A stretch of DNA of 64,000 bases from Dictyobacter arantiisoli (GTDB taxonomy: Bacteria > Chloroflexota > Ktedonobacteria > Ktedonobacterales > Ktedonobacteraceae): contig NZ_BIXY01000019.1 of assembly GCF_008326305.1 (NCBI RefSeq), positions 1-64,000 on the forward strand, written 5' to 3'. How positions within the stretch are numbered: the stretch's first letter is position 1; every line of letters begins with the position of its first letter. Made by a program: the position numbers and the translations under genes. Shown piece by piece: positions 21,001 through 39,416 of the stretch. The notes under the pieces were generated by a model that saw nothing but the letters and a program-made list of their open reading frames with translations, made no database searches and was not told the DNA's origin.

Positions 21001-21303
21001 CAAGGTGGTGAACGCATGATCATCATTCTGTCCTTCGCGACGACAAGTGAGCCAGCACCGGGAAGCCAACGGCGGGATTTTTTAAGCAATTCCAACCGTT
21101 TGAATGTTGCGTTGACCCGCGCCCAACGGAAACTCATCCTGGTAGGAAATGTGCCAGCATTGGAAAACCTGCCCATCTTCCAACGACTGATCACTTACTG
21201 CCGCAGTATGCGTACCTTACATTCGGCACAAGGAGAGATACACGTCGCCAGAGGGATACGCGTATCTCCTTCTCCTGTATCCTCAACCATCACAACCGAT
21301 TAA
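18037..21303 (+). CDS. Dna2-like Fe-S PD-(D/E)XK nuclease and SF1 helicase
   Basis: A protein of about 1,090 residues. Numbers count from the possible GTG at 18019. The nuclease part has His174 (RGNLVH), Asp283 (RGRLDLF) and Glu296/Lys298 (LELK). Cys149 plus Cys386, Cys389 and Cys395 (CTPCSMLKQC) form the four-cysteine Fe-S cluster pattern of Dna2, AddB and Cas4. The C-terminal half is an SF1B helicase of the DNA2/NAM7 type, with GPPGTGKT at 632-639, DEAG at 779-782, and late motifs VDRFQGGER and NVALTRAQ. A role in DNA end or flap processing is inferred. ATG 18037 is preferred (GGGAG upstream); a near-copy of its context occurs at 18076. The stop codons of this gene and the convergent gene overlap. 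Confidence 0.88.
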   Translation: MQGNETEFNQASEMQGNECFLCTLDPKHTCHTPNLSGYLVAIHEGQHNGERLALLVLNTGTAYVEIEVEDYFYRGLIKEFKERGASPASYHLKLQIYHLPSAPEAIAYKTQTRQRYRGNAYTLTVLEPDILLNITDLNQADYCTRQYLLKRLVASGATEATIRGNLVHYCFKELLKEHDRGTFLDENQETPLQVMERHLTQAIANNQIEIGLADVPAETMRAEVIPHLERLARWYERESNTLWTLPGMQSEEQSDENQVRAETFLLAPEIGLRGRLDLFWQQTGQQRLLELKTGGATGELPKRDHRWQVFGYHALLAVRRQSKMKRAFATLLYSGTPDQAQSFGIKATIRDIQRVNETRNILMLNRITGIPSAPPGPSRCTPCSMLKQCRTLSSLLQWQAPVTDEQPKTIVAPQTIDATDNRPERSPLPTPRPFQQEKQPEDSPFFAHYYRLLQIEERANEQQMAQLWQTSVKERLERGSAIQGLEPIAQPIIQNDGWSLTFHCQNTSELREGDEILLSDGDPITGEVVSGTITGISSGQLIIWSRELIAQPQLVDRYDNDLVHVRTLQNLLRWHYVSSHLQDLVAGKIRPRFKGEMIAPRPDFNAEQNLAVTRALQMQDYLLIQGPPGTGKTSVIAEIVTRLVEQGQTVMLAAFTNQAVDNMLKRLVSEGFEQFLRLGSERSVHTTIKPWLLKEQLDKKLQQPKDAGTLPQHLSLVDEKSYQDYLFELLYTTPVVASTTATWSSDKYAPHTAQDGTETANNSGFLFDVAIIDEAGQLTVPAILGALRFARRFILVGDEKQLPPLVLSKEAAEAGLAASLFSFLKQKDEEHIPAYPLEISACVPLRTQYRMNKWISHFSSTVFYDGKLQAHPAIANRQLEFPHGEQQRNRNIILKQIIDPKFPVTFMDVRDEQASAEAKQSNAEAEIVREIVQALLTCGIHEREIGIIAPYRAQVANIRRHLFTSDATIGWQALPSTTPLNVDTVDRFQGGERMIIILSFATTSEPAPGSQRRDFLSNSNRLNVALTRAQRKLILVGNVPALENLPIFQRLITYCRSMRTLHSAQGEIHVARGIRVSPSPVSSTITTD

Positions 21304-22316
21304 AGCGCGTGCAGATCGACCAGACCTTTTTTCACGGCATAGTGGATCAATAGCGGACGATTAAAAACACCCAGTTTATTATAGATCTTGCTAATATGAT
21401 TACGAACCGTCTTTTCACTGATACGCAGACGGTGAGCAATCTCCTTTGTGGCACAACCCTGTCCCGTCAAAGTGAGTATTTCACGCTCGCGCATCGTCAA
21501 ACCATCCTCCTTACTGGTGGAGCGTGTCTCTGCACTATCCACAGGCGTCATGACAGAGAGAGGGAGCGGTAAGATTACTTGTATGAGCGTGCCCTGATCC
21601 GGCGTACGCTCCAAAATGAGGCGTCCTCCCAGCAGAGCTATGCGTTCATAAAGATCATTGAGACCTTGATACCAGTTAAAGATCATATCGAAAACCATTG
21701 CGGTACGCGACATGGACACTGGTACCACGCCTGTGCCGGTATCCTGAACACCGAGCAATAGATGTCCATCCACTGTGGAAAGTGAAACGGTCACCTCTGC
21801 TTCAGCAAAACGTTTACACACATTGATAATAGCGGCACGGATAATACAGTAGAGGTTATAGTTATATTCTACAGGCAATTGGTTGGTAGATTTATCATAG
21901 TGAAGGTTGACAGTATAGCCCGCACCTTTTAACCATGTGAACATTTTTGAGGCTGCCGCTATAAAATCGAACTCTACTTGAGGCTGCTCATCCATACTCC
22001 CAAGGATGTGTCGTAGCTGTGCCAGGCTTGTCTGCGCCTGCACATACCAGGTATGTACCTCATTTTCCTGTTCTAGCGCTGTCATGGGAACCGTTAAATG
22101 GCTCTCCAGATCATTCACCAGAGACACTAATGGTTGCACAACTCCGTTCTGCAACGCCTGGGCGACGCGCTGACGTTCAGCCTCCTGTGCTTCGTAAATA
22201 TCAATCATATCAATCATATGCAGTGTCCATTCTCCTTCTTCCGCATGACCGCCATTACTGCTATGAATAGCTTCAATAGAAATACTCTCTAACCATCCTA
22301 CAAAAATACATCTCAT
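21300..22316 (-). CDS. histidine-kinase-like ATPase fused to LuxR DNA-binding domain, phosphoacceptor lost
   Basis: A 338-residue soluble protein. About 43-105 is a HisKA_3-type dimerisation helix, but the ELHDG-type motif is ALQNG (Gln56, Asn57), so the phosphorylated His is missing. About 140-255 is a HATPase domain with the N box (AAIINVCKRF), G1 (VQDTGTGV) and GGRLILE...GTLIQV. About 275-335 is a LuxR/NarL helix-turn-helix (LTMREREILTL...TVRNHISKIYNKLGV). No receiver domain is present. An ATP-sensing transcription factor is inferred. The start is uncertain: ATG 22217, behind AAGGAGA, would shorten it by 33 residues. Confidence 0.8.
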   Translation of the reverse strand: MRCIFVGWLESISIEAIHSSNGGHAEEGEWTLHMIDMIDIYEAQEAERQRVAQALQNGVVQPLVSLVNDLESHLTVPMTALEQENEVHTWYVQAQTSLAQLRHILGSMDEQPQVEFDFIAAASKMFTWLKGAGYTVNLHYDKSTNQLPVEYNYNLYCIIRAAIINVCKRFAEAEVTVSLSTVDGHLLLGVQDTGTGVVPVSMSRTAMVFDMIFNWYQGLNDLYERIALLGGRLILERTPDQGTLIQVILPLPLSVMTPVDSAETRSTSKEDGLTMREREILTLTGQGCATKEIAHRLRISEKTVRNHISKIYNKLGVFNRPLLIHYAVKKGLVDLHAL

Positions 22317-29269: not shown

Positions 29270-29528
29270 AGTATACTATAAACAGTCGGCTATGAATGGG
29301 ATAAGTACCTCTTGTGAGTGTTTAGAGAGCTGCGGTCCGGTGCAACGCAGTGCGAGCAGGAGAGAAATCCACCCAGGAGCCTACGCGTTGAGCGTCAACG
29401 GTTGCCCCCGCTATCAGGCAGATATGAGTTTCAAGGCAGCCAGACTGTTTTGAAAGAAGTAAGGTGGTACCACGATTCCACGCGTTTAGCGTCGTCGTCC
29501 TTGTAGAAACGAAGGACACGGCGTTTTT
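29270..29528 (+). ncRNA. T-box leader of serS
   Basis: A tRNA-sensing attenuator. Stem I shows the AGTA motif, AGAGAG with a GGTG partner at the distal loop (around 29321-29345), and a specifier region GAAATCCA just before CCCA. Aligned to the leuS leader from the closing helix, the specifier codon is TCC (29368-29370), a serine codon. The conserved T-box AAGGTGGTACCACG is at 29461-29474. The terminator stem CGTCGTCCTT/GAAGGACACGGCG with seven T is at about 29489-29527. Uncharged tRNA-Ser would favour the antiterminator and switch on serS. Confidence 0.9.
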
Positions 29529-29596
29529 TTATTGCCTATCGCGTGGTCCATATGCGAAATGGAGGCACGCATTCAGAAGGAGGAGAGGAATATAGC

Positions 29597-36346: not shown

Positions 36347-36375
36347 TTTACAATCAATGCACAGTGTGCTATTAT
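36347..36375 (+). promoter_or_regulatory. promoter of tRNA-Ala(CGC)
   Basis: TTTACA, 17 bases, TATTAT, with the mature tRNA starting 12 bases after the -10 box. Confidence 0.75.
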
Positions 36376-36386
36376 CAATCTCGCAC

Positions 36387-36459
36387 GGGGACGTGGCTCA
36401 GTTGGTAGAGCGCGACAATCGCACTGTCGAGGTCAGGGGTTCGATTCCCCTCGTCTCCA
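36387..36459 (+). tRNA. tRNA-Ala (anticodon CGC)
   Basis: 73 bases fold as GGGGACG/CGTCTCC acceptor, D stem GCTC/GAGC, anticodon stem CGACA/TGTCG with loop ATCGCAC, and T stem AGGGG/CCCCT with TTCGATT. Acceptor pair 3-70 is G-T, the alanine identity element. The anticodon CGC reads GCG. CCA is not encoded (CTT follows the discriminator A). Confidence 0.95.
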
Positions 36460-36505
36460 CTTGATCGCACCAGCATAGAAAGTGTGTTTCTATGCCATGC
36501 GCATC

Positions 36506-36534
36506 TTGCCTATCGCATACACATATGTTATACT
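36506..36534 (+). promoter_or_regulatory. promoter of the leuS T-box leader
   Basis: TTGCCT, 17 bases, TATACT, placed about 47 bases after tRNA-Ala(CGC) and just before Stem I. Confidence 0.75.
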
Positions 36535-36540
36535 TTAAGT

Positions 36541-36900
36541 AACATTCAGAAGCGACGAGCAGGAGTAGTAGGTCGCCCTTGCAACAGAGAGCAGCCGGTT
36601 GGTGCGAGACTGCATAAGATAGACTGAACTCGCCTGTGAGCAATAAGCATGAAAAAAGAATGTCCTTCATTCTGAAATAATGCTTTTCGGGACGCCCGTT
36701 ATCGCGTAAACTAAGAGTAGATCTTGGTTTGGTAGCATACCAGAACAATTTGGGCTTGTAGCGCAGCTGGTAGAGCGCCTCCATGGCATGGAGGAGGTCA
36801 GGAGTTCGAGTCTCCTCAGGTCCACCAATGCCACCATTGATCGAAAATCAGGGTGGTACCACGGAAAAACCTTTCGTCCCTTGCGGATGAAAGGTTTTTT
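36541..36900 (+). ncRNA. T-box leader of leuS, containing a tRNA gene
   Basis: Stem I (about 36550-36642) has AGTAGTA, the distal AGAGAG with GGTTGGTG, and the specifier region GAACTCG before CCTG, giving the leucine codon CTC (36629-36631). A hairpin AAGCA...TGCTT around AGAATG/CATTCT follows (36647-36685). The conserved T-box AGGGTGGTACCACGG is at 36850-36864, and the terminator ACCTTTCGTCC/GGATGAAAGGT with six T at about 36869-36900. Between the hairpin and the T-box lies a complete tRNA-Ala(GGC), giving a linker of over 200 bases against about 80 in the serS leader. Confidence 0.9.
36752..36827 (+). tRNA. tRNA-Ala (anticodon GGC) inside the leuS T-box leader
   Basis: 76 bases including CCA: acceptor GGGCTTG/CAGGTCC with the G3-T70 alanine identity pair, D stem GCGC/GAGC with one mismatch, anticodon stem CCTCC/GGAGG with loop ATGGCAT, T stem AGGAG/CTCCT with TTCGAGT, and encoded CCA. 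All usual conserved bases (T8, A14, GG, T33, TTC, A58) are present. It starts 110 bases after Stem I and ends 22 bases before the T-box. No strong promoter of its own was seen; a weak candidate is TTTTCG-17-TAAACT at about 36684-36711. Confidence 0.95.
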
Positions 36901-36941: not shown

Positions 36942-39416
36942 ATGATTACACGCACCAAATATGATCCCAAAGAAGTTGAGCCAAAATGGCAATCACAATG
37001 GGATGCAGATCAGATCTATCATGCATCCGATAATTCATCCAAACCCAATTTTTATAATCTGGTCATGTTCCCTTATCCTTCCGGGGATCTCCATATGGGC
37101 CACTGGTATAACTATTCTCCTTTCGACGCTTATGGCCGTTTCAAACGTATGCAGGGCTATAATGTGATGCAACCCATTGGCTTTGATGCCTTTGGCCTGC
37201 CTGCGGAAAATGCCGCCATCAAACGCGGTATCCAGGCTCGTACCTGGACTCTGTCTAACATTGACAATATGCGCAAGCAATTACGGGCAATGGGCGCTCA
37301 ATGGGATTGGCAGCGCGAAGTTGTGACCTGCCAGCCAGAGTACTACAAATGGACACAGTGGCTGTTCTTACAATTCTATAAACAGGGGCTGGCCTATCGG
37401 ACCAAGGCTCCTGCGAACTGGTGCTCCAGTTGTAATACCACCCTGGCAAACGAGCAAGTGCTGGCAGATAACACCTGTGAACGTTGCGGCAGCGTGGTGA
37501 TCCGCAAAGAGATTGATCAATGGCTACTGAAAATTTCTTCCTATGCTGAGCGCCTGCTGGACTTCGCGGAGGTTGAAGATTGGCCCGAAAAGACCATCAC
37601 GATGCAACGCAACTGGATCGGTCGGAGCGAAGGTGCTGAGATTCGCTTTAAAGCCGAGATAGCTGGTCAGCAAGAGGAGATTCCGGTCTTTACAACACGT
37701 CCTGATACGATCTATGGCGCGACATTCTTTGTGCTGGCCCCTGAACATCCCTGGGTGGAGAAGATTACCACGCCAGAGCAACAGGCTGAAGTTGAGGCCT
37801 ATGTTGGACAAGCCCGTCGCATGACTGAGATCGAACGGATGAGTTCAGAGAAAGAGAAATCAGGCGTCTTCACGGGAGGCTATGTCACCAATCCTGTCAG
37901 CGGCGAAAAAACACCTGTCTGGATTGCCGATTATGTTCTGATGAGCTATGGCGCAGGTGCGATTATGGGTGTACCGGCACATGATCAGCGCGACTTTGAG
38001 TTCGCCCGTAAATTCAGCATTACGATCCGCGAAGTGATTCGCGCTAGCGATGAGGAACCGAGCGATCCCACCACCTGGACTGAGGCCAGAGAGGCCCTGG
38101 GGGAACTGGTCAATTCTGGTCCTTTCAATGGGACACCTGCTGCAGAAGCAAAGGCACGTGTGATTGACTATATCGAAGAAAAAGGGATCGGCACCCGGAA
38201 GATCAATTATCGCCTGCGCGACTGGCTGATCAGTCGGCAGCGCTATTGGGGCGCACCCATTCCAATCGTCTATTGTCCAGAGCATGGCACGGTCCCCGTA
38301 CCAGAGGATCAACTACCGGTCTGGCTGCCAGAGAACGTGCAATTCAAGGCTACAGGCGAATCTCCACTGCGTTATGAACCAGATTTCGTGAACACGACCT
38401 GTCCCGTTTGTGGTGGTCCAGCAACCCGTGAGGCCGATACCATGGATACGTTTATCGACTCGTCCTGGTATTATCTGCGCTATGCAGATCCTCACAATAG
38501 CGAGGTGCCCTGGAGTCCTGAAAAGATGCAGCAATGGCTGCCTGTCAATCAATATGTCGGTGGCATCGAGCACGCGATCCTGCATCTGCTGTATGCACGC
38601 TTCTTCATCAAGGCCTTACACGACATGGGACATATCACCTTTGACGAACCATTCAAGCGCCTGTTCCATCAGGGTATGGTATTGGGTGCCGATGGTCAGA
38701 AGATGTCGAAGTCACGCGGTAATGTCGAGGCTCCTGACAAATATGTCGAGAAATATGGAACCGACACAGTACGCTGCTATATGATGTTCATCGGTCCATT
38801 TGATGCGGGTGGTTCCTTCCGTGCCGAAAACCTGGAGGGCATCTGGCGCTTCCTGAATCGCGTCTGGAGTCTGATAGGTGAGAGCTGGATTGATCATCCC
38901 AATACGGTTGAGACAAAGGATAGTCAGGCTATTGAACGTCTGCGCCATAAAACAATCAAACGTGTTACGGAAGATCTGAAGCATTTCCACTTCAATACCG
39001 CACTGGCTGGACTGATGGAATTCAATAATGCCCTGATCAAGCAACAGCACAATCCAGTGGCCCAGAGCGCTACGTATCAAAAAGCGCTACAGACCCTGCT
39101 GCAACTGCTGGCTCCATTCGCGCCACATATCACAGAAGAACTGTGGCAGCAGAGCAATCATAAAAACAGTATTCATACCTCCGAGTGGCCCGTCTATGAA
39201 GAGGAACTGACCAAAGATGAAGCGTTTACACTGGTTATTCAATTGAATGGTAAGGTCAGAGAGCGCATTGAAGTCGCCGCTGATATCAGTGAAGAAGAAG
39301 TGCGTACACTGGCTCTGAACAATCCACGTGTGCAATCATTTATTGGGACAGCAAAAATACTCAAAGTCATTTATGTACCAGGCAAACTGGTCAACATCGT
39401 GGTCCGCCCTGCTTAA
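36942..39416 (+). CDS. leuS: leucyl-tRNA synthetase
   Basis: Charges tRNA-Leu with leucine. The 824-residue class I enzyme has HMGH (HIGH motif) near residue 51, a zinc-ribbon-like CxxC stretch in the insertion (CSSC...CERC near 165-187), the CP1 editing domain with TTRPDTIYG and GVPAHDQRD, and KMSKS near residue 587. The strong GGGGGAGG ribosome binding site starts eleven bases before the ATG. Expression is probably set by the T-box leader. The preceding spacer has no other gene. Confidence 0.97.

Follow-up and report, generated by a model that had tools for sequence, protein, structure and literature searches.

The stretch of DNA analysed here (the window) covers positions 1-64,000 of the forward strand of contig NZ_BIXY01000019.1 from the soil bacterium Dictyobacter arantiisoli (GCF_008326305.1). 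On its plus strand lies leuS, which codes for a leucyl-tRNA synthetase of 824 aa (36942-39416; TIGR00396, 1021 bits), and upstream of this gene is a leader that matches the Rfam T-box family RF00230 over the full length of the model (model positions 1-219) at 36546-36884, scoring 100.3 bits against a gathering threshold of 93. T-boxes are textbook tRNA-sensing RNAs; nested within this T-box call is a match to the Rfam tRNA family (RF00005, 36752-36824, 55.8 bits), and ARAGORN, which is independent of Rfam, calls a tRNA-Ala(GGC) with an encoded CCA at 36752-36827. These calls bear out the core of a preliminary description of this DNA, made from its letters, which had placed a complete tRNA-Ala(GGC) gene inside a leucine T-box upstream of leuS.

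In 5' to 3' order, all on the plus strand, a promoter with an extended -10 element (TTGCCT-17-TATACT, 36506-36534) is followed by Stem I (36552-36641) with a CUC leucine specifier (36629-36631, in the context GAA-CUC-G), Stem II (36644-36687) and a Stem IIA/B region (36688-36706, CGGGACGCCCGTTATCGCG), the stems being positioned by the RF00230 alignment and the last of them also by its sequence. Then come the 5' arm of Stem III (36720-36737; GATC plus TGGTAGCA), the embedded tRNA-Ala(GGC), the 3' arm of Stem III (36829-36842; TGCCACCA plus GATC), which pairs with the 5' arm, the T-box motif AGGGTGGTACCACGG (36850-36864) within the antiterminator (36850-36881 in the alignment, with the T-box bulge UGGUACC), and a competing intrinsic terminator hairpin with its T run at about 36865-36900, which folds at -21.2 kcal/mol and was missed by a simple terminator scan. 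The promoter, the leucine specifier, the T-box motif and the succession of terminator and leuS had all been read in this way from the letters, and the placement of Stem I by the RF00230 model is compatible with that reading.

The specifier agrees with the regulated synthetase gene, and a tRNA-Leu(GAG) that can read CUC is present in the genome; the bulge of the window's leader, UGGU, is of the form UGGN, in which N pairs with the discriminator A of the ligand tRNA. Judged from its sequence, the leader shows each of the T-box features that were tested: like the transcriptional T-boxes of RF00230 it has Stem I with a specifier, Stems II and IIA/B, a Stem III with RRRxG and AA flanks, the T-box bulge, an antiterminator opposed by a terminator, and a cognate synthetase gene downstream; unlike them, it carries at the tip of its Stem III a complete tRNA gene that is under selection and belongs to another amino acid.

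A separate tRNA-Ala(CGC) gene (36387-36460, plus strand; ARAGORN and Rfam), with a sigma-70-like promoter of its own (36347-36375, plus strand; TTTACA-17-TATTAT, 10/12), precedes the leuS T-box, an order kept in nearly all genomes of the family and found also in some other Chloroflexota (L266, L273). In the predicted fold of the window's leader, TGCCACC (within 36829-36858) can also pair with GGGTGGTA, giving a hairpin that resembles an anti-antiterminator and hides the T-box bulge.

Distribution and conservation of the embedded tRNA

Comparison of leuS leaders, as the preliminary description had suggested, revealed that the arrangement recurs in nearly all genomes of the family Ktedonobacteraceae as well as in Chloroflexota of other families. 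An isotype-neutral pattern (a T-loop, 27-57 bases and the T-box motif), which sees tRNAs close to an antiterminator with a fitting motif and which other geometries or isotypes could escape, matched 51 of 400 Chloroflexota genomes, a few of them by chance, and at least 119 stretches of a species-level genome collection. Among the matches listed, an ARAGORN-confirmed tRNA lies ahead of the antiterminator at 65 of 80 loci. The hosts at these 65 loci are Chloroflexota, Thermomicrobiota, Atribacterota and deep members of Bacillota, among which are Desulfotruncus, Syntrophomonas, Symbiobacterium and Thermaerobacter; the remainder come from single MAGs that bear the labels Armatimonadota, Actinomycetota and Pseudomonadota. 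When the matches listed are taken together with the relatives, at least 121 loci, corresponding to 97 distinct leaders, have a tRNA shortly before the antiterminator of a T-box; within this combined set the tRNA is tRNA-Ala(GGC) at 121 of 121 loci and leuS lies directly downstream at nearly all of them. A recheck of eight distant loci with Rfam gave, at each of them, a T-box match over the full length of the model (70-133 bits, four exceeding the cut-off) that encloses a match to the tRNA family or its clan. A chance overlap between an independent tRNA gene and a T-box call is refuted by this conservation, with 121 loci in several phyla sharing isotype, gene and position in Stem III, and we accord it practically no weight.

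Both parts of the composite RNA bear the marks of selection. Each of the 97 embedded tRNAs has an acceptor stem of seven base pairs and keeps A73 as well as G3:U70, the pair that marks alanine identity; therefore, selection acts on it as a tRNA. Likewise, AACUC, with its CUC specifier, is present in all 96 readable leaders; thus, selection acts on the switch as a leucine T-box. The UGGU bulge is seen in 94 of the 97 leaders, and the tRNA of the window combines the cloverleaf, the GGC anticodon, G3:U70 and A73 of a functional tRNA-Ala. In 17 genomes of the family, two of them assembled as a single contig, no tRNA-Ala(GGC) was found besides the embedded one, the other alanine isoacceptors being recovered by the same search. 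A sole copy is no proof of being essential, since in some relatives a pattern search for tRNA-Ala(GGC) found none. Taken together, the retention of the alanine identity features in 97 of 97 leaders and the sole copies in these 17 genomes speak against the tRNA-like domain being a mere structural cap that is never processed, a reading that we consider very improbable, although the presence in the D. arantiisoli genome of a second, near-identical tRNA-Ala(GGC) (C2:70155-70236; the window's genus has such a second copy) would accord with it.

With regard to transcription, of 35 leaders 29 have a promoter-like site scoring at least 9/12 ahead of Stem I and one has such a site in its interior; in the relatives such a site lies before Stem I and none between Stem I and the tRNA. 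A promoter belonging to the tRNA itself was considered and rejected, as promoter-like sites inside the leaders occur at background level.

Placement of the tRNA within Stem III

The preliminary description had the tRNA taking the place of the linker that normally carries Stems II and III. This has to be revised: in the RF00230 alignment Stem II and Stem IIA/B are intact upstream, and the tRNA lies inside Stem III. According to a review (PMC7583486), the recently recognized motif 5'-RRRxG-Stem III-AA-3' belongs to the discriminator, whose function needs Stem III. These published flanks bracket the tRNA; sequence comparison places it as nested within Stem III and forming its tip, while none of the preceding stems (I, II and IIA/B) is missing. 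In the leader from Thermosyntropha (L140), it is exactly the loop of Stem III that Rfam's own model fills with the tRNA.

Several properties of the leader set bear on this placement. The AA flank stands at the expected site in 88 of the 97 distinct leaders, and in most leaders outside the window's family a helix starts past the purine motif, heads to the tRNA and closes past it. When the arms were anchored on the flanks, with no energy optimisation, 4.23 of six positions were paired, as against 3.00 +/- 0.13 with the 3' arms swapped across species; several standard pair types are seen at each anchored position, i.e., the arms of Stem III covary. In a duplex-energy test that shuffled each leader's own letters, 38 of the 97 leaders gave p values no higher than 0.05, with about five expected. 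For the window, the stalk formed by 36720-36737 with 36829-36842 is marginal against such shuffles (z -1.7, p 0.045), with local hairpins competing, and in the window's genus the 5' flank fits RRRxG poorly and the stalk is weak; hence, the assignment to Stem III leans on the leader set more than on the window alone.

The closest published structures are the insertions in Stem III/helix A2, which, like the embedded tRNA, add an extra domain to the discriminator and leave the core intact; in the portions of PMC7583486 that deal with them, they are of unknown function and, unlike the present case, not described as tRNA genes.

A proposed dual-use leader and competing readings

We propose that the leader is put to a dual use, serving as a leucine sensor and as a source of tRNA-Ala, with the tRNA processed out of it and the Stem III stalk permitting this; we would place the probability of this reading at about two in three. 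Transcription would start at the promoter before Stem I, the only recognizable one. As the tRNA precedes the regulated terminator, every transcript, whether attenuated or read through, contains it; consequently, the supply of tRNA-Ala should be independent of leucine and that of leuS dependent on it. RNase P and 3' processing would free mature tRNA-Ala from attenuated and read-through transcripts alike, and the attenuated leader, otherwise wasted, would be a tRNA precursor for which the T-box terminator acts as the terminator. The stalk might keep the folding of the tRNA apart from the discriminator, which comprises Stem III and the antiterminator, so that tRNA-Leu is sensed with the tRNA in place, and would probably hold both halves together when excision comes first. 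In sole-copy genomes that use the tRNA, RNase P and 3' processing would have to release it.

There is a parallel in tRNAs of rRNA spacers and in tRNA-mRNA cotranscripts, where RNase P and 3' processing excise the tRNA and the flanking stems are kept. The leader is like these in that its tRNA sits within a longer transcript, the excision here being predicted; it is unlike them in that the host RNA is a tRNA-sensing switch, with the tRNA between sensor and output. It had been thought that excision would cut Stem I from the antiterminator, but it need not, because the arms of Stem III pair across the tRNA. That a riboswitch thus cut open still works, with the tRNA excised, the halves held only by the arms of Stem III and leuS still under control, is a tentative proposition that we regard as possible but doubtful.

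Alternatively, the tRNA could be a passenger whose processing begins only once the polymerase is beyond the attenuator, with Stem III as no more than a tolerant insertion site. The Stem III tips of known T-boxes do vary and take insertions, according to PMC7583486, and two relatives have leuS T-boxes with a plain, tRNA-free Stem III (L261, L272). However, the stalk covaries and keeps its register across phyla, and its strength differs with the copy number of the tRNA: within the family, 17 of 17 stalks from single-copy genomes lie at or below -18.2 kcal/mol and nine of nine from two-copy genomes at or above -15.0 kcal/mol, an association with p 4e-5 that is uncorrected for relatedness, comprises about three independent contrasts and uses energies that vary somewhat with arm length. 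This correlation is suggestive, being as expected if the stalk matters only where the tRNA must leave the leader. We therefore deem separation in time, with the stalk playing no part, an unlikely reading, though the most serious of the competing ones.

The preliminary description had also raised the possibility that the supply of alanine tRNA and the expression of leuS are coupled. Such coupling, in which processing or folding of the tRNA-Ala would alter the leuS decision and feed processing capacity or alanine status into it, could draw on the strict association, seen in several phyla, between a single isotype and a single synthetase gene, and on the need of the discriminator for Stem III (PMC7583486). 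Against it, the leaders have no element that reads alanine charging, the specifier being always CUC, and this tRNA occurs outside the T-box as well, or beside leuS where there is no T-box, which points to a history as gene neighbours. The tRNA, standing upstream of the regulated terminator, is transcribed either way; the suggested coupling is thus unsupported and in our view improbable, and the only coupling that the sequence would imply is that of a shared promoter.

Here an RNA that senses tRNA itself carries a tRNA gene for a different amino acid, and isotype and target gene stay the same over several phyla; if the dual-use reading holds, attenuated leaders, usually viewed as waste, could be productive RNA precursors. 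The leader makes it possible to test RNase P cutting inside a working riboswitch and how the co-transcriptional order of events is set. It also offers a natural substrate for structural study of Stem III, which PMC7583486 presents as only recently recognized to be essential. For annotation it carries a warning, in that overlapping Rfam matches to T-box and tRNA may be legitimate. We found no description of a T-box with an embedded tRNA gene in the open-access (PMC) literature, in agreement with the preliminary description, which knew of none; subscription papers may hold one. In a 2008 survey comparing leuS T-boxes the term 'tRNA gene' is absent, and word searches of the T-box database paper and of the 2020 review (PMC7583486) gave no tRNA gene inside a T-box.

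Chloroflexota without the embedding and further T-boxes

Some Chloroflexota have the same tRNA on the same strand beside leuS in other configurations. In five leaders tRNA-Ala(GGC) lies ahead of a complete T-box (L265, L266, L273, L281, L283) and in five others it adjoins leuS with no T-box (L258, L259, L267, L274, L275); these neighbours are unlike the embedded leaders in that the tRNA stands before the whole T-box or the T-box is absent. Since the tRNA is outside the T-box or missing in some Chloroflexota, embedding is unnecessary for either function. In L275 (genome G062) the tRNA abuts leuS, 19 bases before it and with no T-box; hence, 3' processing of the tRNA would make the 5' end of the leuS mRNA.

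In L263 (genome G064) Stem III consists of GGGCCTG...CAGGTCCA with a short loop and resembles a tRNA shrunken to its acceptor stem; a pattern search of this genome found no intact tRNA-Ala(GGC). From its sequence, this Stem III is possibly a decayed embedded tRNA-Ala. In a leuS tree (FastTree), sequences of the Chloroflexota and Bacillota types stand mostly apart and embedding occurs in both, the sample having been chosen for embedding, so that gains and losses are not countable from the tree. The pattern may reflect horizontal transfer; an old neighbourhood of tRNA-Ala(GGC) and leuS with one or a few embedding events would fit it.

The D. arantiisoli genome has 19 T-box matches in all, and a search of the other 18 for an embedded tRNA found none. 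Among them is a second T-box in the window (29283-29505, 94.0 bits) with a UCC serine specifier; the ORF that follows it at 29543 reads as a seryl-tRNA synthetase. Another contig has two tandem T-boxes on its minus strand (G000:C14:20925-21189 and 21265-21536).
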